From contig CACWOX010000008.1 of NCBI GenBank assembly GCA_902762615.1, forward strand, positions 1 to 64,000: a stretch of DNA of 64,000 nt. The letters run 5' to 3'. Under the pieces are notes generated by a model, which searched no databases, had not been told where the DNA came from, and saw only the letters and a list, made by a program, of their open reading frames with translations. This document shows positions 26,146 to 39,717 of the stretch, piece after piece. The position numbers and the translations under genes were made by a program. Position 1 is the stretch's first letter. Every line of letters begins with the position of its first letter. This DNA is from an uncultured Ruminococcus sp. (GTDB lineage: Bacteria; Bacillota; Clostridia; Oscillospirales; Acutalibacteraceae).

Positions 26146-27063
26146 ATGAAAACAACCAAAAGACTCATTTCACTGACCGCAGTTCTGGCGCTGCTGCTCT
26201 CAATGGCGTCCTGCTCGCTGCTCGAAAAGAAGGCAAGCTTCACCCAAAAGATCACGGCTGGCAACATTACTGTCAGCATCCGCGACGACATGAAAGAACT
26301 GGACGAGGTCAAAAACGACGACAACTACATCACAGGCTTCCGCTGGAACGGCTACGGCATGAACATCGGAAATGTGGAGGCAAATGAAACCAGCGCATTC
26401 AAGCTCAGCGGTCAGACCGGCGACGATGTCCTTAAAAAGGTTGCCGAAAGCGGCAAGGATGCGAGCGACATCAAGAAGTTTGGCGACATCAGTTATATCG
26501 AATACACCGATACGTCCAACAGCACGGATTACGCATCCACGGTGTATATTACGGAAGTCGGCTATGAGTATTATTTCTTTGAGTTCTACACACTTCCCAA
26601 TAATGCCGACAAGTACCGCGAGCAATACGAGACCATTATTTCCAGCGTCAGCATCATAGAGGAACCTGCCAAGACGGTAGACGTCACCTTTGACAATGTG
26701 ATCTTAACGGTGGATGGTGACGCATATGAGCAGAGCAGCGGCACATGGATATGCAGCAGATACTCTGTCACTGTATTCAACACCAATCTCAGCGCCAACA
26801 CAGCAACACCCGAGCAATTGGCAAAAGCGACAATCCAGAGCGGCGGTTACAAGGACTTCAACGGTCAGGATGTCACTGAAGTTCAAACAACTCCGGGCGG
26901 CGCGGTCTACTTTGAAGGCATGGCTGAGGAATTATACGCTACCCACTTCATCAAGGAAATCAACGGCACGCTGTATTATATCATGCTTTCAACGATTGTT
27001 CCTACAGACGATCAGCTCAAGGCTGAATTCGTAACGATTGTCGACGGCGCTCACGCGGCGTAA
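26146..27063 (+). CDS. lipoprotein, tandem paralogue 1
   Basis: 305 residues with a lipoprotein signal ending LSMASC (Cys23). The mature part is two similar-sized alpha/beta halves. Half one begins FTQKITAGNITVSIRDDMKE and holds FRWNGYGMNIGNVEAN. Half two begins TVDVTFDNVILTVDGDAYEQ and holds a Cys (ICSRY). Both halves end in a loop then ...EFYTL/...LSTIVPTDDQLKAEF, suggesting an internal duplication of a PsbP/DUF-like fold. Function unknown; it is exported and membrane-anchored. It has its own promoter, GGAGG and terminator. The neighbouring gene 27259-28167 is a clear paralogue. Confidence 0.8.
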   Translation: MKTTKRLISLTAVLALLLSMASCSLLEKKASFTQKITAGNITVSIRDDMKELDEVKNDDNYITGFRWNGYGMNIGNVEANETSAFKLSGQTGDDVLKKVAESGKDASDIKKFGDISYIEYTDTSNSTDYASTVYITEVGYEYYFFEFYTLPNNADKYREQYETIISSVSIIEEPAKTVDVTFDNVILTVDGDAYEQSSGTWICSRYSVTVFNTNLSANTATPEQLAKATIQSGGYKDFNGQDVTEVQTTPGGAVYFEGMAEELYATHFIKEINGTLYYIMLSTIVPTDDQLKAEFVTIVDGAHAA

Positions 27064-27095: not shown

Positions 27096-27144
27096 CATCC
27101 GCACATAAGGCAGAGCAACTCCTTGTGTGCGGATGATTTTTTTT
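27096..27144 (+). terminator. terminator of lipoprotein 1
   Basis: CATCCGCACATAAGG pairs with CCTTGTGTGCGGATG (15 positions, one wobble), then A and TTTTTTTT. Confidence 0.92.
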
Positions 27145-27196
27145 AATTGGAAACTTAAAATTAGTATGAATTCTCCTATCAGAGCCCTCATAATTC

Positions 27197-27225
27197 TTGA
27201 CAAAAAAAATATACTTAGCTACAAT
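27197..27225 (+). promoter_or_regulatory. sigma-A promoter of lipoprotein 2
   Basis: TTGACA (27197-27202), 17 bases, TACAAT (27220-27225). Confidence 0.85.
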
Positions 27226-27258
27226 TATAATATATTACCCGAATGGAGGAATAAAAAA

Positions 27259-28167
27259 TTGAAAGCAACAAAAAAAATGATGAGTTTCATTGCGGTTCTT
27301 GCGCTGCTGCTCTCAACGGCATCCTGTTCTCTTCTCAACGGAGGCGGAAAGTTCAACCAGAAAATCGTAGTCGGCAATATTGAACTCACTATCCGTGAGG
27401 ACATGAAGGAAGATCCGTCAATTACTACAAAGGGACAAAATTATATCACCTGCTATTTCTGGAACGGATACGGGATGAATATCGGCTCGATAAATGCTAC
27501 CGATATCATACTCAGCGGAAAAACAGCTGATACATTTCTTGCGGAAACACTGGAAGAGCAAAAAAACCTCACCGATATTAAAAAGTACCAAGACGTCAGC
27601 TATGCGGAATACTCCATTACAGAAGGAGAAAATCAATATCTGTTTACCTATTTTATACTTGAAGAAGGAAACGAATTTTACTTCCTTGAGTTTTACACCA
27701 TGTCAGAAACTTCAGATGAGTACATGAAACAGTATCAAACCATTGTTTCAAGTGTTAAAATGATTAAAGAAACAACGGCAACTGTCAATGTAACCATAGG
27801 AGGAATCGCTATGACAATTGACGGTGACTCGGTTGACAGTGGAAACAATATTTATAAATGCGGCAGATATATGGTCAGCGCCGCTTCTTATACTGTTCCA
27901 TCTGAATATTCCGCTGAGGAATTCATTCGTTCAGCCATCGAACAAGGAGGTTACAAGACCGCCGAGGGAAAGGAAGTAACCGAGGTAACTACAACCGCCG
28001 ACGGCATTTCCTCTTTTGAATGTTACACTAATAATATGTATGCGTATCATTATGCCAAGACGGTAGAAACCAAGATTATATATCTCTTCTTCTTCACAAC
28101 GGCGCCAGCTGATGAACAGCTTAAAACAGATTTCGGATATATTGCCGCTGCCGCAAAGCTTTCATAA
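27259..28167 (+). CDS. lipoprotein, tandem paralogue 2
   Basis: TTG 27259 is the start: GGAGG lies ten bases ahead, and the frame's earlier codons (from 27127) overlap the promoter. The 302-residue product begins KATKKMMSFIAVLALLLSTASC. It matches paralogue 1 along its length: KFNQKIVVGNIELTIREDMKE, FWNGYGMNIGSINATD, EFYFLEFYTMSE and TTAPADEQLKTDF. The two differ at many positions and this copy is more A+T-rich, so the duplication is old or one copy was acquired from a relative. Function unknown. Confidence 0.8.
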   Translation: MKATKKMMSFIAVLALLLSTASCSLLNGGGKFNQKIVVGNIELTIREDMKEDPSITTKGQNYITCYFWNGYGMNIGSINATDIILSGKTADTFLAETLEEQKNLTDIKKYQDVSYAEYSITEGENQYLFTYFILEEGNEFYFLEFYTMSETSDEYMKQYQTIVSSVKMIKETTATVNVTIGGIAMTIDGDSVDSGNNIYKCGRYMVSAASYTVPSEYSAEEFIRSAIEQGGYKTAEGKEVTEVTTTADGISSFECYTNNMYAYHYAKTVETKIIYLFFFTTAPADEQLKTDFGYIAAAAKLS

Positions 28168-31123: not shown

Positions 31124-31855
31124 TTATTTGCTGAATTGTGCCTTTGCCTGCGTCACGATCTGCTGGGTTTTTGCCGGCAGCTCTTTGAATTCGGCGCGTC
31201 CCATGCCTTCTGTTTCGATGGGCGGCAATATCGCTAAATTCACTTTGCCGGATTTTATCCAGTAGCCGTTGCGCTCAAAGAGAGCGCTTGTGCCGTCAAG
31301 CGCCACAGGAATGATCGGAGCGCCGGTCTTCTGGGCGACCTTGAAGGCGCCGCCCTTGAATTCGCCTATCTCACCGGTCTTGCTGCGTGTGCCTTCGGGA
31401 AAGATGATCGCAGAATAGCCGTTGTTTATCACTTCGATCATCTTGTTGATTGCTTCAATTCCCGCCTTCATGTCGGCGCGGTCGACGTAGACGCAGTGGA
31501 TCTCCCTCATCCACAGGCGTATGAGCGGCACCTTGCCTATGCTCGCCTTGGAGAGAATGGCATGAGGCTTGTCGAGGTGTGCCAGCAGCACAAGGATATC
31601 AAAGAAGCTCTGGTGATTGCTTGCAAAAACGCAGGTGCGTCCTTCGGGAATATTTTCCTTACCTGTAACCGTCACCTTTGCGCCTGCCATGAAGAGCAGC
31701 CTGCGCGCCCAATTGCGAACGATTTTATCAACCAGCGCATCGCGTTTTTCGCGTGTAGAGAATTTATTTGCCAGCTGCACTCTGAGCCAGACGAACATCA
31801 GCAGAAGCAGCTCTATCCACATATATGCCTGAAAAATAATAGTTCTGAGTATCAT
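31124..31855 (-). CDS. plsC: 1-acyl-sn-glycerol-3-phosphate acyltransferase
   Basis: 243 residues. A membrane helix (about 5-27) is followed by the acyltransferase domain with NHQSFFD (H81 and D86 of the HX4D motif), an SIGKVPLIRLWMRE block and FPEGTRSKTGEIGEFKGG (EGTRS 154-158). All four family motifs are present. It makes phosphatidic acid at the inner membrane face. GGAGG precedes ATG 31855. It follows greA after a terminator. Confidence 0.92.
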   Translation of the reverse strand: MILRTIIFQAYMWIELLLLMFVWLRVQLANKFSTREKRDALVDKIVRNWARRLLFMAGAKVTVTGKENIPEGRTCVFASNHQSFFDILVLLAHLDKPHAILSKASIGKVPLIRLWMREIHCVYVDRADMKAGIEAINKMIEVINNGYSAIIFPEGTRSKTGEIGEFKGGAFKVAQKTGAPIIPVALDGTSALFERNGYWIKSGKVNLAILPPIETEGMGRAEFKELPAKTQQIVTQAKAQFSK

Positions 31856-31957: not shown

Positions 31958-32446
31958 TTATTTGGAAGCGATGATTTCGAGTATCTGGTAGGTCAGCACT
32001 CCGCCGGGAGCCTCAACATCCACCAGTTCATCGACATGCTTGCCAAGAACGGCTCTGCCTACCGGACATTCGTCCGAAATACTGCCTCTGAGGGGGTTCG
32101 CTTCAGTGGAGCCGACGATCTGATATTCTTCCTCTTCGTTGCTCTCAACATCGAGAAGCTTAACCGTGCTGCCGATCTTTACCACGTCGGTGGAAAGCTC
32201 GGATTCGTCGATAATCTCGACATTTTTAAGCATTGTCTCCAGCTCGAGAATTCTGCTCTCGACCTGAGCCTGTTCGTTTTTGGCTTCGTCGTATTCGCTG
32301 TTTTCACTCAAGTCACCGAAGGAAAGGGCAACCTTGATCTTATCGGCTATGTCCTTTCTTTTGACTGATTTGAGGTATTCCAGCTCTTCCTCGCGCTGCT
32401 TGAGACCTTCCGCCGTCAGCTTGAATTGCCTTACGTTGTTTGCCAT
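31958..32446 (-). CDS. greA: transcription elongation factor GreA
   Basis: 162 residues from ATG 32446 (AGGGAG ten bases upstream; the TTG nine bases earlier is too close). The N-terminal coiled coil contains the tip motif [16 protein letters not shown], whose acidic residues reach the polymerase active site. The C-terminal FKBP-like domain has [11 protein letters not shown] and [19 protein letters not shown]. It rescues backtracked RNA polymerase by stimulating transcript cleavage. It has its own strong promoter. Confidence 0.95.
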
Positions 32447-32507
32447 ACTTTGCAATCTCCCTTTGCTTCATGGATTTATCAAAAATGAATGCGGTGATAC
32501 GGATAAT

Positions 32508-32573: not shown

Positions 32574-34739
32574 TCACATTGCTTTCAGGATAGATACGGT
32601 AGAAAGCAGCAGGAACACCAGCTGCATAATCAGTATCTCCATGGAATCTATCGCGTATGGGCTTATGCAGCTCAGTCCCGCCACAAAAATGAGTCCCATT
32701 CCAAAGCATATGCCCTGTATCATCATACTCACACCCTCGGTATCCTTGAGCACAGCCGCTGCTCTTATCGCGTCGGAAAGCGCTTTAAGGGTTCCGTCGG
32801 TGGCTATCAGAGCATCCTGCGCTTTTGTCACCTTGTAGGTCACGGAATCGTAGACGCTGCTGCCCTCATTATCCAAGATGGAAATAAATCTCGGCGGTAT
32901 GTCAAATACCGATTTGATCAGCTGAATATTGATATTGGCGTCACAGGTGTAAATCATTATGCTGGTTCCGTCATCTATGAGCTGAAGCAGCGCCTTTCGC
33001 GCCGACATTGCCGCCTTGTATTCCAGCATGTACACGCCCATGAGCCTGTTGTTGACTGCCACATAGAGCATCTGGAAGCATTCGTTTTTGCGCATGGCTT
33101 CAAATTCATCCAGCCGCGCGAGACCGCCGCCCGGAATGAGTACGCGGTGCAGCTCCATCATATTCCTGTTGCCGATCAGTACTTTTTTATCCTTGACCCA
33201 TGCGGAAATGCCCAGCTCCGTCTCATATGTAATGCTGTCAACACGCTGCCTGAGCCTTGCGTCATCGCGTATCAGCTCACCGAACACCTCGGCAAGAGCG
33301 CCGCCGGAAACGACAAGAACCGAAGCCGCAACGGAAGTGATTTCCTCGATCTCCATGTCGTTTATCGCAAAGCTCCTGCGGACGCGAATGCTGCCTCTTG
33401 GGAAAAGGTCGGTGGTATTGATGGCAAAAGCGTCGGTATCTCCGAATTTATCCACCGCGTTCCAGCCGGTCAGCAGAGCGCCGCTGCGTCGGAGCCGTTT
33501 GGAAAGGCGGCTGAGCGGAGCTTCAAGACTGATCAGACCGGTTATCGGAATTCCGGTGACCAATGCCGCACAAAGCGCCGAAAAGGCTACATTCACAGGG
33601 TCGCTGTCAGTGAATGCTCCTCTGACCGCCGCAACGGCAGCCGCAATGACCGACACGATAAGAATGACCGGATAAGCACCTGACATCATGATGGAGCATT
33701 TGTCCTCACGGCAGGCATTATAAAAGTAATTGGAAAGGTGCTTGGTGCGCACCACATAAGCGATCTTTGCGCCGCGGACGCCCGAAGCATGCCTGAGATC
33801 GGCGGCTATGGGACTGTCATCGGCTAACATCACCTCGCTGTGTATGCCTCTCTTGGAGGAATAGGCAAAGCCGTGCGCTACCCGTGAGTTGTGTATTAAT
33901 CGGTTGACGGTATAAACAAGCACTGCCAGACAGACAGGCGCCGCAAATGTGCCGTATATCGGCTTGGAAAAGAAAAACGCCGCCGCAAGCATATAGATTA
34001 TATGTATCAGCTCGGCAACTATCGCCGTTGAAATGGCTGTCAGGGTGCTGAAATTTCTTTTAAAGAGGCTCCTTATTCCCTCTTTGATGTCCTTGAATAA
34101 AATCAAGGAAGTCAGTGCAAGCCCTATGAGAGAGATAAGAAGATAGATCATCGTGAAACCGTCCGGCGAGCATATGCCGGACATCGACACACCGAGATTG
34201 GGAAGCAGATCCATCGCCACCAGAAAAGCCGTGATAATCGAGATTTCAAAGAGATTGAATTTCATGCGCTTGGTCATGTGGCTGAGGTCGGTGCGGATTC
34301 TCTCCGCATCCTGCCTGCTTCGGTATTCCGCCGCGGCAAGTCTTCTGTCACTGTCGCTGGAAAACCGCCCGCTGTCGATGTATCTGTCGGATTTAATTCG
34401 CCTTTCCAGATCAAATAGATCAATGCTGCTCTCGCGGCTGCGGACGCTTCGCTTCTGATTCTTTTTGAGAAGCCTGTCGGCAGGGTCAAAGTCAACCGGC
34501 GAAAGCTCCGGCAAATACTCCGAAGGCTCGGGCAGAAGTCTGTCGGCTACGGAAATGTCCAGCTTTACAAATCGTATGACGCCTTTTGTAAGTCTGAGAT
34601 TTCCTCTGCCCTTTGCTGCCGGCTGGCTGATATTCCATGCGCTCGGAATCGGCATTGCCTCCATGACATGCGAAACGTCCTCCGGTCGCAGCCGGCGCTT
34701 TTTGCTGCCAATGTGTGCACTTTCTTCGTGATAATTCAA
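32574..34739 (-). CDS. P-type ATPase-like pseudoenzyme (large membrane protein)
   Basis: The 721-residue protein starts at TTG 34739 behind AGGAGGT. A disordered basic N-terminus (1-155) precedes about six membrane helices (160-400, plus two at 675-721). The layout from LVTGIPITGLISLEAPLSRL onwards follows P1B-type ATPases. The phosphorylation motif DKTGT is replaced by NTTDL (441-445) and the TGD motif by TCD (598-600). GDGxND and the CPC metal site are absent. The nucleotide-binding domain remnant (ELGISAWVKDKKVLIGN, 508-524) is recognisable. So it has a transporter-like fold without a phosphorylatable Asp, perhaps a scaffold or sensor. It is downstream of two disordered proteins and rlmB. 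Confidence 0.75.
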   Translation of the reverse strand: MNYHEESAHIGSKKRRLRPEDVSHVMEAMPIPSAWNISQPAAKGRGNLRLTKGVIRFVKLDISVADRLLPEPSEYLPELSPVDFDPADRLLKKNQKRSVRSRESSIDLFDLERRIKSDRYIDSGRFSSDSDRRLAAAEYRSRQDAERIRTDLSHMTKRMKFNLFEISIITAFLVAMDLLPNLGVSMSGICSPDGFTMIYLLISLIGLALTSLILFKDIKEGIRSLFKRNFSTLTAISTAIVAELIHIIYMLAAAFFFSKPIYGTFAAPVCLAVLVYTVNRLIHNSRVAHGFAYSSKRGIHSEVMLADDSPIAADLRHASGVRGAKIAYVVRTKHLSNYFYNACREDKCSIMMSGAYPVILIVSVIAAAVAAVRGAFTDSDPVNVAFSALCAALVTGIPITGLISLEAPLSRLSKRLRRSGALLTGWNAVDKFGDTDAFAINTTDLFPRGSIRVRRSFAINDMEIEEITSVAASVLVVSGGALAEVFGELIRDDARLRQRVDSITYETELGISAWVKDKKVLIGNRNMMELHRVLIPGGGLARLDEFEAMRKNECFQMLYVAVNNRLMGVYMLEYKAAMSARKALLQLIDDGTSIMIYTCDANINIQLIKSVFDIPPRFISILDNEGSSVYDSVTYKVTKAQDALIATDGTLKALSDAIRAAAVLKDTEGVSMMIQGICFGMGLIFVAGLSCISPYAIDSMEILIMQLVFLLLSTVSILKAM

Positions 34740-34838
34740 CGGAATAAACCTCCTGCTAATGCGGTATTATTTCCGGCTGCAAACATCATTGTGTTATTGT
34801 GTTATTGTGTTATTATGTTTAAAACAGCCCAAAGTGCG

Positions 34839-34877: not shown

Positions 34878-36875
34878 TCACTTTCTCTTTTTAAATCTGC
34901 CGCCCGACGACTTGCCGCCTTCATCAGACGGAGAGGACTGACGGTCAGACGAGATTGATCTGCCGCCGAAACCGAAGCCGAATTCGTCATCATCGTCGTT
35001 TTTGGAAGCACTGTCGCCGCCAAAGGATATATCGCCAAAGTCGGCATTATCGAAAGCGCCGTCATCAAATCCGTCATTGCCAAATACATTGTCGCTGAGA
35101 TCGCTGTCAAATCCGTCATTGCCGAATGCATTGTCGCTGAGATCGCTGTCAAATCCGTCATTGCCGAATGCATCGTCATTCAGATCACTGTCAAAACCGT
35201 CCGTTCCTGAAGCATTATCGTTCAGATTACTCTCAAAACCGCTTAAAGAGGATTGGTCATTTTTCGGCTGGGTATCTTCCGGCTTTTCTTCCTTTGTGTG
35301 CTTGTGGAAATTAAAATCAAAATTCGTGAGCGGACTGGGTGTGAATTTCGGCTGCTCCGGTTCGGGAGCAGGGGGTGGAGTAAATATCGGAGCTATCGGT
35401 TCGGGTGCTGCCTGCTGCACCGGCTGAGGCTGCTGCACCGGCTGAGAAAACTCCTGCTGACTGCGATAGGGCGGCTCATAGGGAGGCTGCGGATAGGTTC
35501 TGGGAGGCTCCTCGCGGTTATCCCGATTATAGTAGTAGCCGTCTCTGCGATCATCATATCTTCTTTCCCTGCGGTCATCATACCTGTCTTCATACCGGTC
35601 ATAGTACCGGTCGTCATACCGATCATCAGCTCTATCGTCGTAATACCTGCGGTCATCATCGCGGCGGTGTTCATTGAACCGGCGCCTCCCTCGTTCCGAA
35701 TCGCGGCGACGGTCGTAAGAATCATCCCTGCGGTCATCTCTGCGTTCATCACGATACCTGCCGTAAGGCTCCTGAGGCGGATATGGCGGGTACTGCTGAT
35801 ACTGAGGGGGATATGCGGGGTACTGCCCATACATCGGCATAGGCATCGGCATGGGCATCGGATAAGGAATGGGTATGGTCTGTATCGGCATATTGCCCGA
35901 CTGATTCTGTCCCGAGTTCGGAATGACTACCGGATAGGGCATCATCTGGTTCATAGGCGCCATGGGAGCCATAGGATATGACGGGTACATTCCTCCATAA
36001 GGCATATAATCCTGATTTGGTTTATCCTGATCATGGTTCATGTAATAGTCATCCTCGTCTCGATCATCATAATTATCGTATGGATCGTCGTAATATCTGC
36101 GGTCATCGCTGCGCTTTGGGAGCGGCGGAAGCGGTGGGTCGTTCCTGTACTCAGCCGTCGGCTCGGGTTCGGGCTTGGACGGCTTGGAAAACACGGAATC
36201 GGGGCGCAGCTCAGGAAGGTAGGAATCCTCCTCGGAGGGAGCCGTCTTTTTCGGCACTACCTTTACAGGAGCCGGCTTTGGCGGCTCAGGCTCAACGGGA
36301 AGCGCTTCCGGCTCGGGCTGTCGCTCTTCCTCTTCGTCCTTCTTCTTCTTAAATGAAAATTTCGATTTCACGGGCTTAGAGTGTTCGTCAAAATATCTGT
36401 CAAAATCCTCAGAGTCGTTGCCCTTGGAGCCGTCATAGGAAAGCCCCGCAAGCAGATCCCTCGCTGCGTCGCCGTCTGAATAAATCGACTTTTCCGGATA
36501 TACGTCGTCCTCGCTTTCATTGTCGTCTACCGGATCAAAGAGATAAGAAAATTCCGATTCGGCATTTCTTAAAGGAGCGTTTTCATTCTCGCGGCTGCTG
36601 CGGTCACGCGGCGTTGAAATCATAGTGGAGCGCGTGGGGTCAAATATATGCTCATCTGTAAGCGTTTCGTCGTTGTCATCGAGCCGTTCGCGCTTGCCAA
36701 AGAGACTCTTTTTGTGCTTGGGCAGATCGGCGGTTTTTTCGGCGTTTTTCTTTTTTGCCTCGCGCAGCTCTTTGCGGCTGAGTTTTTTGGGCTGTTCGCC
36801 TCCACCCATGTTGTCCGGGTCTGCTATGTCAATTTCAAAATCGTCGTTATAGTCGAAATCGTCTTCAAATCCCAT
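34878..36875 (-). CDS. large intrinsically disordered protein with tandem repeats (665 aa)
   Basis: A cytoplasmic-looking protein with no signal peptide or membrane helix and almost no expected fold. In order it has an acidic N-terminus (FEDDFDYNDDFEIDIADPD), a Lys/Arg patch, and Pro/Glu stretches. The centre is Tyr/Asp/Arg-rich (RYYDDRADDRYDDRYYDRY and similar), beside a Met/Pro/Tyr segment (PMPMPMPMYGQYPAYPPQYQ) and a Gln/Pro block. Near the C-terminus are 14-residue repeats of the type GFDSDLSDNAFGND (about four to five units), and it ends in a basic tail. Such Tyr/Arg/Asp composition favours condensate formation. ATG 36875 follows CGGAGG. Function unknown. Confidence 0.75.
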   Translation of the reverse strand: MGFEDDFDYNDDFEIDIADPDNMGGGEQPKKLSRKELREAKKKNAEKTADLPKHKKSLFGKRERLDDNDETLTDEHIFDPTRSTMISTPRDRSSRENENAPLRNAESEFSYLFDPVDDNESEDDVYPEKSIYSDGDAARDLLAGLSYDGSKGNDSEDFDRYFDEHSKPVKSKFSFKKKKDEEEERQPEPEALPVEPEPPKPAPVKVVPKKTAPSEEDSYLPELRPDSVFSKPSKPEPEPTAEYRNDPPLPPLPKRSDDRRYYDDPYDNYDDRDEDDYYMNHDQDKPNQDYMPYGGMYPSYPMAPMAPMNQMMPYPVVIPNSGQNQSGNMPIQTIPIPYPMPMPMPMPMYGQYPAYPPQYQQYPPYPPQEPYGRYRDERRDDRRDDSYDRRRDSERGRRRFNEHRRDDDRRYYDDRADDRYDDRYYDRYEDRYDDRRERRYDDRRDGYYYNRDNREEPPRTYPQPPYEPPYRSQQEFSQPVQQPQPVQQAAPEPIAPIFTPPPAPEPEQPKFTPSPLTNFDFNFHKHTKEEKPEDTQPKNDQSSLSGFESNLNDNASGTDGFDSDLNDDAFGNDGFDSDLSDNAFGNDGFDSDLSDNVFGNDGFDDGAFDNADFGDISFGGDSASKNDDDDEFGFGFGGRSISSDRQSSPSDEGGKSSGGRFKKRK
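35067..35246. repeat. 42-bp tandem coding repeat
   Basis: Four full 42-bp units and part of a fifth begin at 35067, 35109, 35151, 35193 and 35235. Units two and three are nearly identical, the outer ones diverged. They encode the 14-residue repeats of the disordered protein and are likely to vary in copy number between strains. Confidence 0.85.
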
Positions 36876-36933: not shown

Positions 36934-38754
36934 TTATCTGCGCCGCTGCGGCTGACGGCTGCTTGCACGGTCGCTGTCAGGCTCAGCCTTGGGAGTATAA
37001 AATCCCAGAGGTCCGAACTTCGGCTTTGGCGGCACATTCTGCTGCTGTCTGTCGGGAGCACGGCGTGCGCCGTTTGGAGCCTGCTGGGGAGCATATGCGG
37101 AATTCTGGGTACTGCCCTGCATCTGCGCGTTGCGCATCATCTGCTCCTGCTGGCGGCGGTATGCCTTCATCTGACGCTCATAGGCGAGTCGCTGCTGCTC
37201 GTAGACACGGCGGCGTTCTTCCTCGCGACGGCGTGCTTTCTCCTGCTCCGCCTCACGCTTTGCCTTCTGCTGAAGGCGGACGATCTCCCTGCCGTCCGCA
37301 ATTCCCTGCTCCGTGGCACGCCTGAGCTGCTCCTGCATGTCGCGTCGCTGGCGCTGATGCTCGGTGTATTCTCCCCGGGGATATCTGCGTTCACCGCCAT
37401 ACGGCTTTTCCCGCTGGATATATGCCCCCGGACGTCCCGTGCGATGACTTCCGCGATAGCGTGACTGCTCTGCCATGTCTGCCAGACGGCTCTGCTCGTC
37501 CAGCCAGCGGGAATAATTGTTGTCCTTGGAATTGACCCGACTGTAGCCCATATTCCACTCATACATAAGCGCCGGATCTGTCAGCCCCTCCGGGTCAGCC
37601 ACATGTCCCGGTCCACGCATATCGTGATTGATAAGGTCTCTCAGGCGCTTGTTGCTGATCTGCACATAGGGGTTGTTGAATTCGCCCGACATAATGCTTT
37701 CGCTCAGCACGTTTTTATCGGCACTCAATCTTCGGCGCGATCTCTCCATCCGGCGGTATCTGTCGCGCGGGTCGAATTGAGCGTCGTCCACATAATATTC
37801 CCTGCTGCCGCTGTTGGAATGAAATCTGCCGTTCTTGCCGGCGGATTCGTCCTCATAAATGGTGTCAACGGTATGCCGGAGCATATCCGAGCGCGAAGGA
37901 TCAATCTGATCAATTTCGCTCCACCTGCGGCTGAACCGCCCGAAATAGGGCAGTTCTTTTGAATCCGGCATCAGACCGTCCTGCTCCGGAATCTCTGCGC
38001 GCCAGCTGCCCCGCTCGGTCACGCCTTCTATGTCATACTGATCCTCGGCAGTGTAAAAATCCTCCGCCGAACCGTCGACACTGCGGACGTCGTATATGCC
38101 GAGCCGTGCGTATCTCTTTTTGGCACGGCTGTCTATGCCGGATTTGGCGTCCTCAATATCCCGCCGCCTGCGAATGTCAGCCATAATGGCTTCGGGCGTC
38201 TCCTTGTTTTCGTCAGGGAGCATTTTTTCCACTTCCGCGCGGCGCTTGTCAACAGGCGTATCGAGACGGCTGTAGGAACGCAGCTTTACCTCGCGCTTTT
38301 TGAAACGCGAGCCTTCGCTGTCGCCATAGAGATAGGAAAGGTCTTCGGGAAGCTCTTCCTTGATATCGGCGAGAGCGTTGTATTTAAGCCTGTCAATGGT
38401 CAGGTTGGATAACGTGCTGCCTATGCTTCCCACCGGACGGTAATTGCCGGTGTAGGCATTTTCATCAAGACGCGACGTGAGCTGATCCGCGTTGATGATA
38501 TCCTTATGCAAATCAAAGGCAAAACGGTTTTCTTTGGGTTTATCGGTGCTTTTGCCGCTTGCGTCGGTCTTGAGTCCGCGATCATCGGCAAACATGGAGG
38601 GATCAAGCTCAAAATTCGTCTTGCTGCCATGCCACGTTCCGTTGTTCCAGCGCTCATGCGCTTCGTCCATGGTGACGAAGGTTGAAAAACGAGCCTCGTC
38701 AGATTCGTCATCCACGTAAGGATTGACAAAAGGCTCTCTGAAATTTTCTGCCAT
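36934..38754 (-). CDS. large charged, mostly disordered protein (606 aa)
   Basis: ATG 38754 (MAENFREPFVNPYVDDE) is preferred over the longer frame because AGAAGGGAG lies about ten bases ahead. The protein is rich in Arg, Asp, Glu and Tyr, with no signal peptide or membrane helix. Its C-terminal third has a single long Arg/Glu/Gln helix (about 470-560, KREAEQEKARRREEERRRVY and neighbours), a likely coiled coil. A Pro/Gln/Arg tail follows. It lies between rlmB and the Tyr/Asp-rich disordered protein, all in one direction with 45-58 base gaps, so they are probably one operon. I do not recognise a family. Confidence 0.75.
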   Translation of the reverse strand: MAENFREPFVNPYVDDESDEARFSTFVTMDEAHERWNNGTWHGSKTNFELDPSMFADDRGLKTDASGKSTDKPKENRFAFDLHKDIINADQLTSRLDENAYTGNYRPVGSIGSTLSNLTIDRLKYNALADIKEELPEDLSYLYGDSEGSRFKKREVKLRSYSRLDTPVDKRRAEVEKMLPDENKETPEAIMADIRRRRDIEDAKSGIDSRAKKRYARLGIYDVRSVDGSAEDFYTAEDQYDIEGVTERGSWRAEIPEQDGLMPDSKELPYFGRFSRRWSEIDQIDPSRSDMLRHTVDTIYEDESAGKNGRFHSNSGSREYYVDDAQFDPRDRYRRMERSRRRLSADKNVLSESIMSGEFNNPYVQISNKRLRDLINHDMRGPGHVADPEGLTDPALMYEWNMGYSRVNSKDNNYSRWLDEQSRLADMAEQSRYRGSHRTGRPGAYIQREKPYGGERRYPRGEYTEHQRQRRDMQEQLRRATEQGIADGREIVRLQQKAKREAEQEKARRREEERRRVYEQQRLAYERQMKAYRRQQEQMMRNAQMQGSTQNSAYAPQQAPNGARRAPDRQQQNVPPKPKFGPLGFYTPKAEPDSDRASSRQPQRRR

Positions 38755-38799
38755 TTTTCCTGTCTCCCTTCTGCATTTATCTGACAATCAGCTGTGTAA

Positions 38800-39717
38800 T
38801 TACTTGTTGTACGCCTTGATACCGCCCCGCTGGCGGGTTATTTCATAAATGACAATAGCGCATGCGACAGATGCGTTGAGTGAATTGATGCTGCCACGCA
38901 TGGGCAAAGACAGCACTCCGTCGCACTTTTCGCGCACCAGACGGCTCACTCCGCTGTCCTCGCCGCCGATCACCAATCCGACGGCTCCCGTGAGGTCGCC
39001 TCCGCACCATGACTGCCCGTCCATATCGGCGCAGTATATCCACAAGCCGCGCTTTTTCAGGTCATCAATGCAGGCTGAAAGGTTTGCCACCCTTGCCACC
39101 GGCATATATTCCAGCGCGCCTGCGGAGGCTTTGCCGACTGCCCATGTGAGACCCACTGCGCGGCGCTTGGGAATGATCACTCCGTGTGCTCCGGCAGCTT
39201 CGGCTGTGCGGATAATGGCTCCGAGGTTATGCGGATCCTCTATGCCGTCGCAAAGTATGACAAAGGGCGATTCTCCGCGGCTCTCAGCCAATGCGAATAT
39301 ATCGTCGATTTCGGCGTATTCGTGAACGGCAGTCAGAGCGGCTATGCCCTGATGACTTCCGCCGCACATAGCTTCCAGCTTGGCAGGAGAAACCTCCTTG
39401 ACAGTGATGTTCTTTTCTCGTGCCAAAGCAATGATCTGACCGAAGGTACGCCCGCTGCTGTCACTGGAACGTGCCACAAGCAGCGACTCGATGGGTCTGC
39501 CGCTTTTAAGCGCCTCGGTGACGGCGTTGCGTCCGGTGATCAAGTCGCTGTGTTTTTCTCTTCTTTCCTCATTTTCTGCGGTTTCTCCGAAATCTGCCCC
39601 TTCTTCCGTCGCGTCCTGTTGGCTGTCGGCATAATGCCTGCGGCGTGGCTGCTGATCGGATTTTTTGTCTCCCTGATATCGGCGGCTGTTTCCGCCGCGT
39701 CCCTTATAGTCGCTCAA
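38800..39717 (-). CDS. rlmB: 23S rRNA (guanosine-2'-O-)methyltransferase RlmB-like (SpoU/TrmH family)
   Basis: 305 residues. A disordered basic extension (1-55) leads to a substrate-binding domain (about 57-135, ITGRNAVTEALKSGRPI) and the SPOUT knot. The knot carries motif 1 DGIEDPHNLGAIIRTAEAAG, motif 2 GLVIGGEDSGVS and motif 3 LPMRGSINSLNASVACAIVIYE. It methylates the 2'-O of a ribose in 23S rRNA using S-adenosylmethionine. The start is TTG 39717, with AGGAG 11 bases upstream. It heads the operon with the two disordered proteins. The N-terminal basic tail is longer than usual. Confidence 0.92.
   Translation of the reverse strand: MSDYKGRGGNSRRYQGDKKSDQQPRRRHYADSQQDATEEGADFGETAENEERREKHSDLITGRNAVTEALKSGRPIESLLVARSSDSSGRTFGQIIALAREKNITVKEVSPAKLEAMCGGSHQGIAALTAVHEYAEIDDIFALAESRGESPFVILCDGIEDPHNLGAIIRTAEAAGAHGVIIPKRRAVGLTWAVGKASAGALEYMPVARVANLSACIDDLKKRGLWIYCADMDGQSWCGGDLTGAVGLVIGGEDSGVSRLVREKCDGVLSLPMRGSINSLNASVACAIVIYEITRQRGGIKAYNK

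Follow-up and report, generated by a model that had tools for sequence, protein, structure and literature searches.

The window, a stretch of 64,000 nucleotides from a contig of an uncultured Ruminococcus sp., carries on its minus strand a gene whose product is predicted to adopt the fold of P1B-type heavy-metal ATPases and has lost the catalytic motifs of these pumps. The gene belongs to a family that is retained throughout an order of Clostridia, is under purifying selection, and is linked to an upstream gene that we take to be rlmB. We class this family as a pseudoenzyme of the P1B fold and not as a P1B pump by function; the protein, hereafter the pseudo-ATPase, probably does a job other than pumping.

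The window protein is predicted to share the fold of P1B-type ATPases

A sequence-only reading of the window had described a full-length frame of 721 codons that follows the P1B plan with its catalytic motifs changed or missing. The frame was found intact at these positions, on the minus strand (Table 1), with NTTDL at the place of DKTGT (residues 441-445), TCD at the place of TGD (residues 598-600), TGIP around the CPC site, where P398 is kept, and no GDGxND. The NCBIfam model TIGR01525 (heavy-metal P-type ATPase) matched residues 356-607 with an E-value of 1.6e-11 and 43.8 bits, which is far below its curated cut-off of 346 bits. A phmmer search matched the copper ATPase 3rfu (E = 1.4e-4), and no Pfam family was found for the protein at E ≤ 1.

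The AlphaFold2 model, built from an alignment of 43 sequences, had a mean pLDDT of 82.3 and a pTM of 0.78, with most of the body above 90. The pLDDT of residues 1-120 was mostly below 50, and the N-terminal tail is predicted to be disordered. When the model was compared with the PDB using Foldseek, P1B pumps ranked on top (4bbj, E = 3.2e-18; 3rfu, E = 3.0e-16), followed by ATP7B and ZntA; the TM-scores were only about 0.3-0.5 with large rmsd values, which may mean that the domains stand in other positions. We also modelled L137 (Ruminococcaceae bacterium Marseille-P2935), which lies far off in the family, on nearly the same sequence set; this model showed the same order of elements, again with 4bbj as its top match (E = 2.3e-19).

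Both models featured eight long helices placed according to the P1B plan, together with P and N domains, in the same order as in CopA, ZntA, and CadA (PDB 4bbj, 3rfu, 4umw, and 7qbz). These heavy-metal ATPases were the best matches in sequence as well as in fold, and the predicted P1B-type fold agrees with what the sequence-only reading had proposed. Chance resemblance to the pumps was ruled out by the two models and the Foldseek comparisons. Compared with the pumps, the pseudo-ATPase lacks DKTGT, TGD, GDGxND, CPC, and SEHPL, its A domain is cut down to about 47 residues in the model, and a disordered tail stands where the pumps have metal-binding domains. Counted from the same column, its core has 572 residues, as against 662 and 673 in two true P1B pumps.

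Table 1 Features of the pseudo-ATPase gene and of its neighbourhood in the window.
Feature	Positions	Strand	Basis
P1B-fold pseudo-ATPase gene, 721 aa, TTG start	32574..34739	minus	fold, TIGR01525, Foldseek
Ribosome-binding site AGGAGG, 9 bases ahead of TTG	34749..34754	minus	
N-terminal tail, residues 1-128, predicted disordered	34356..34739	minus	pLDDT mostly <50 up to residue 120
First two long helices (MA/MB-like), residues 142-213	34101..34316	minus	AlphaFold secondary structure
Next two long helices (M1/M2-like), residues 232-294	33858..34046	minus	AlphaFold model
Actuator (A) domain remnant, no TGE, residues 300-346	33702..33842	minus	AlphaFold model, translation, alignment
Helices (M3/M4-like) with TGIP at the CPC place, residues 347-418	33486..33701	minus	AlphaFold model, alignment
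NTTDLFPRG instead of DKTGTLTxG, residues 441-449	33393..33419	minus	alignment
Nucleotide-binding (N) domain, residues 451-575; G510 and G523 kept, SEHPL His lost	33015..33389	minus	
TCDANIN, family T-x-D-x-N motif at the TGD place, residues 598-604	32928..32948	minus	alignment
P domain, second half, GDGxND segment missing, residues 576-650	32790..33014	minus	
Last two long helices (M5/M6-like), residues 651-720	32580..32789	minus	AlphaFold model
SpoU-family RNA 2'-O-methyltransferase gene (presumably rlmB), conserved upstream gene	38800..39717	minus	Pfam SpoU_methylase, E 1.1e-39
Disordered-looking ORF, 617 aa, between rlmB and pseudo-ATPase	36934..38787	minus	this genus and G028 among 79 loci
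Disordered-looking ORF, 665 aa, same interval	34878..36875	minus	this genus only among 79 loci
greA, downstream in this genus	31958..32455	minus	Pfam GreA_GreB
Acyltransferase gene (presumably plsC-like), downstream in this genus	31124..31855	minus	Pfam Acyltransferase, E 6.7e-35

Catalytic residues are lost throughout the family and others have become fixed

The alignment contained 43 DKTGT-bearing P1B pumps and 128 distinct relatives of the pseudo-ATPase; five broken, split, or duplicate entries (L030, L051, L072, L080, and L179) and rows with identical 150-residue cores were left out. Motif strings were counted in 127 rows, that is, 130 minus three true pumps (L094-L096). The pump residues K442, G444, T445, E475, H480, D574, and G599 were present in 43/43 pumps and in 0/128 pseudo-ATPases; they include the Lys, the Gly, and the second Thr of DKTGT, the His of SEHPL, and the Gly of TGD. 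The GDGxND segment, whose G, D, G, N, and D occur in all 43 pumps, was gapped in all 128 pseudo-ATPases and aligned as a deletion, not as a substitution. The string GDGxxD occurred in two of the 127 rows, at residue 460 and not at the GDGxND place. No TGE was found in the translated window protein, and the string appeared in 11/127 rows, two of them within the A domain remnant (L039 and L043) and nine elsewhere. Of the CPC motif, the cysteines were kept in 4/128 and 2/128 sequences and the proline (P398) in 106/128, and CPC-like strings in six of the 127 rows all lay away from the CPC place. K626 was kept in one sequence of 128.

The possibility that homologues retain DKTGT, so that the window copy would simply have decayed, was not borne out, since the motif was found in 0/127 rows. 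The change at TGD is likewise a property of the family. The absence of the phosphorylated Asp and the conservation of N441 hold for the window's genus, where position 441 was N in 17/17 rows, the window copy included, but not for the wider family, in which this column contains D in 60, N in 23, and S in 16 of the 128 sequences.

Pump residues still present in the family are G510 (126/128), G523 (128/128), and the Asp of TGD, D600 (122/128). At other positions, new residues were fixed, namely D or E at 444 (112), F486 (113), Y559 (118), Y574 (117), P536 (106), and N602 (104 of the 128). Strongly kept residues that are peculiar to the family make the change look like replacement, not erosion. 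Judged by the features of P1B pumps, the family has the common fold and, apart from the two TGE strings in the A domain remnant, none of DKTGT, GDGxND, TGD, TGE, CPC, and the SEHPL His.

Selection acts on the gene and conservation is highest in the head

In the 25 same-genus pairs of lowest dS, dN/dS ranged from 0.067 to 0.30 for the whole gene and from 0.034 to 0.31 for residues 356-721, ratios that are rough for the 18 pairs in which dS exceeded 1. Purifying selection is strong. An enzyme fold without catalytic residues that is conserved under selection is one mark of a pseudoenzyme, and this is what was found here. Decay of one single copy was ruled out by the absence of the motifs from the whole family together with the low dN/dS.

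Conservation peaked in the N domain and in the early part of the P domain. The mean frequency of the most common residue was 0.44 in the N domain and 0.33-0.34 in the two helix pairs compared, whereas the true pumps showed the reverse order, with 0.52 in the N domain and 0.62-0.64 in the helix pairs. An N domain that is kept better than the helices argues against a conserved ion path; demands of folding, and not of docking, could also account for how constant the head is.

The pseudo-ATPase is a single-copy gene of one order

Among 60 genomes chosen as relatives, the window's own included, 57 contained a match. Within the genus, 16 of the 17 other genomes matched at 52-83% identity and without stops, and matches in other genera had 19-26% identity. 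The latter were considered to be the same gene and not ordinary pumps because nearly all of them adjoin rlmB and none has DKTGT; exceptions among the matches fetched were two true pumps (L057 and L059), which served as controls.

The order survey used a profile of 47 cores. In this survey, as in those of the class and the phylum, no more than four first-look candidates were scored for each genome, and diverged copies can therefore escape; the order and class counts rest on the matches listed, with lower-ranked genomes taken by best E-value only. In the order, 334/346 genomes had a full-length match at E ≤ 1e-60, one each. Rescoring the other 12 on all candidates brought out, in four of them, a diverged copy that covers most of the model and lies beside rlmB, bringing the total to 338/346. 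Seven genomes (G344, G375, G395, G428, G525, G616, and G638), listed as 90-100% complete, had neither the pseudo-ATPase nor an RlmB match at E ≤ 1e-40, reflecting either joint loss or a shared assembly gap; in another genome without the gene (G350), the contig runs on for only about 400 bases past rlmB.

In the class survey, 14 of 15 order genomes had the pseudo-ATPase (334-659 bits), and no full-length match was found in 278 genomes of other orders. Outside the order, the highest score was 144.5 bits, confined to model positions 198-476 and typical of ordinary pumps. In a phylum sample, 5/299 genomes matched at E ≤ 1e-45, all five belonging to the order, with kinship listed for 20 of the 294 misses. 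The order is presumably the Oscillospirales of GTDB, which is not an order in the NCBI taxonomy. Named carriers include Marasmitruncus massiliensis (Oscillospiraceae in NCBI) and a Negativibacillus MAG; a genome titled Oscillospiraceae bacterium (L146), which may or may not belong to the order by GTDB, had only partial pump-like matches.

The pumps set apart comprised 43 ORFs with DKTGT, the best of which scored 207 bits, as against 166 rows without the motif, duplicates and fragments included. The four diverged copies scored 143-201 bits, which overlaps the pumps, so that their separation rests on motif, coverage, and rlmB. In a tree of 43 P1B rows and 55 family rows, some drawn at random and others picked, one change separated the two groups with a support of 100/100; the tree program gave a long-branch warning, and the root of the family is therefore unsure. 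The pseudo-ATPase most likely became fixed a single time, early in the history of the order, and was then handed down, nearly always in one copy beside rlmB. One family gene, that of G058 (L030/L072, G058:C38), contains an in-frame TGA and shows up as separate pieces; it may be a pseudogene or reflect a sequencing error or recoding.

The gene is nearly always linked to rlmB

The order on the minus strand of the window is rlmB, the 617-aa ORF, the 665-aa ORF, the pseudo-ATPase gene, greA, and the plsC-like gene. In 81 genomes fetched through the family gene, rlmB was found upstream on the same strand in 60, and directly upstream in 52 of these, with a median gap of 20 bases. In the other eight, 1.1-4.6 kb separates the two genes: disordered ORFs in six genomes of this genus and in G028, and a broken copy in G058. 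Nineteen of the 21 genomes without visible rlmB have fewer than 250 bases of sequence upstream of the pseudo-ATPase; where at least 250 upstream bases were available, rlmB was present in 58/60 genomes, and in 43/45 with at least 800. No rlmB was found in the 3822 upstream bases of G037 or in the 4017 of G010, whose contig ends inside an interval typical of this genus.

Starting from rlmB, 36 of 80 named loci had no pseudo-ATPase; in 15 of the 36, less than 1.6 kb follows rlmB, and many of the remainder bear Lachnospiraceae, Clostridium, Eubacterium, or unranked names. Neighbours other than rlmB vary among 43 named loci, which were fetched through rlmB and are hence biased for rlmB itself. The linkage may be merely inherited gene order; judged by gene order only, RlmB is a possible partner.

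The sequence-only reading had suggested that the basic N-terminus could bind the disordered neighbours. Among 79 loci, these two ORFs were seen only in this genus, except that the 617-aa ORF has a match in G028 (L060:9479-11200), and they are therefore unlikely to explain the function of an order-wide family. Since the tail of the pseudo-ATPase is often longer elsewhere, these low-complexity ORFs may be a split-off or replaced tail. Two further observations concern the region. In three genomes of the same genus, an extra GreA-like ORF of 80-90 aa adjoins the pseudo-ATPase gene, just before the full greA (L011:3794-4036, L012:1143-1385, and L013:2307-2579), and in the window, adjoining plus-strand ORFs at 26146-27063 and 27127-28167 have similar lipoprotein-like sequences, probably from a tandem duplication.

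Some tails carry a short motif

A median of 288 residues precedes the core in the family, and about 150 in the window copy. Part of the members outside the window's genus have a short tail motif of the type [FY]-S-[VLI]-[DE]-[DE]-I-[LI], for example, YNVDDILEEIKRKK, FSLDDILAEF, and YNVDDILEEI; carriers include L137:9798-12260, L161:9729-12422, and L145:9905-12514. A strict regular expression found it in 23/110 tails, compared with 0.48 (maximum 3) over 200 shuffles, and a looser pattern in 39/110. In the L137 model, the motif region (residues 7-21) is helical, though at modest confidence. The motif was absent from the rows of the window's genus and, given also the 39/110, is not universal; among window ORFs of at least 150 codons, no strict match and one looser match were found.

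Similar motifs exist in other proteins. A DNA pattern for the motif hit 10 places in 19 genomes, nine of them by position in the pseudo-ATPase's own tail, and the idea of a proteome-wide motif was dropped for this reason; a backward control pattern gave four matches in the same genomes, so single matches can be due to chance. At the named loci, the motif occurred in 13/43 family genes and in 8/912 non-family ORFs (0.6 expected), two of which (L133 and L179) look like pieces of family genes.

Discussion

P-type pumps run the Post-Albers cycle. With DKTGT, GDGxND, TGE, and SEHPL missing, this cycle should not run in the pseudo-ATPase, and retention throughout the order suggests that the protein is useful to the cell. 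The sequence-only reading had proposed a retained non-pumping role, for example as a scaffold or sensor. Its pseudoenzyme part stands, in view of the lost motifs and purifying selection, and such a role would fit the conservation pattern. The reading we favour, which is about as likely as not, makes the pseudo-ATPase a membrane-anchored binding platform that works through its head and its disordered tail. Such a protein would form no aspartyl-phosphate and run no pump cycle. The membrane helices would hold it in place, the N/P head would offer a docking surface, either fixed or set by a ligand, and the long N-terminal tail would recruit a cytosolic partner.

The leading alternative, which we consider unlikely though worth keeping in mind, is a nucleotide sensor whose N domain would still bind ATP, ADP, or another nucleotide and, with no hydrolysis, relay its state via the membrane body to a partner. 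The near-invariant G510 and G523, N524 in 82/128 sequences, and the high conservation of the N domain and first part of the P domain are consistent with it; on the other hand, H480 of SEHPL and E475, a Glu five positions ahead, both invariant in the pumps, are gone from the whole family, and the first Gly of the GxG motif remains in 36/128 only. A far-reaching version of the platform can be entertained as speculation and is quite unlikely in its full form. It would make the protein an order-defining core membrane receptor: in one ancestor, a P1B ATPase would have given up its chemistry and turned into a single-copy platform, essential or nearly so. The tail motif, all but exclusive to this protein in the genomes searched, would recruit one dedicated cytosolic partner and possibly tie RlmB rRNA modification, or ribosomes, to the membrane.

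By analogy with some pseudokinases, the pseudo-ATPase might be a regulatory subunit that tunes a genuine P1B pump in its own cell by pairing with it. The shared fold and the presence of DKTGT-bearing P1B pumps in some genomes of the order (e.g., G023 and G058) speak for such pairing, which we nevertheless regard as doubtful because, wherever at least 250 upstream bases could be inspected, the gene nearly always adjoins rlmB and not a pump. A passive channel or carrier, using the membrane helices and not ATP, is improbable: both models have the eight long helices of the P1B plan and the CPC proline is widely kept, but its cysteines are nearly always lost and the helices are less conserved than the head, the reverse of true pumps. 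We give very little weight to a HAD-type enzyme with migrated catalytic residues; although Asp is frequent at 441, an acidic residue prevails at 444, and D600 is common, the strand and loop of residues 438-450 have no invariant acidic position, the GDGxND segment is gapped in every relative, and N replaces D441 in the window's genus. A decayed pseudogene or local artefact, which the TTG start and the decay-like motif loss of a lone copy might suggest, is hardly credible in the face of stop-free frames and low dN/dS in the genus and of retention by nearly all genomes of the order.

The platform reading has parallels. Pseudoenzymes have been reviewed as scaffolds or allosteric partners (PMC10211241), and, like them, the pseudo-ATPase has a conserved fold from which the catalytic motifs are gone. 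The examples in that abstract are kinases, phosphatases, and ADP-ribosyltransferases, and neither P-type nor ATPase is mentioned in its text. According to another review, Na,K-ATPase has signalling, non-pumping roles while being an active pump (PMC6152704); there, a P-type ATPase body assembles other proteins, as proposed here, with the difference that the pseudo-ATPase family should not pump. A literature search, whose coverage left out most subscription journals, found no description of a P-type ATPase pseudoenzyme.

Research on pseudoenzymes has dealt at length with kinases and phosphatases. A core gene that an entire order carries in single copy, with the fold of a pump, no chemistry, and no Pfam family, offers a clean and testable case of a repurposed transporter. 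Whatever the pseudo-ATPase does, its function is one that a large group of gut-type Clostridia has kept and whose gene is absent from the related orders sampled.
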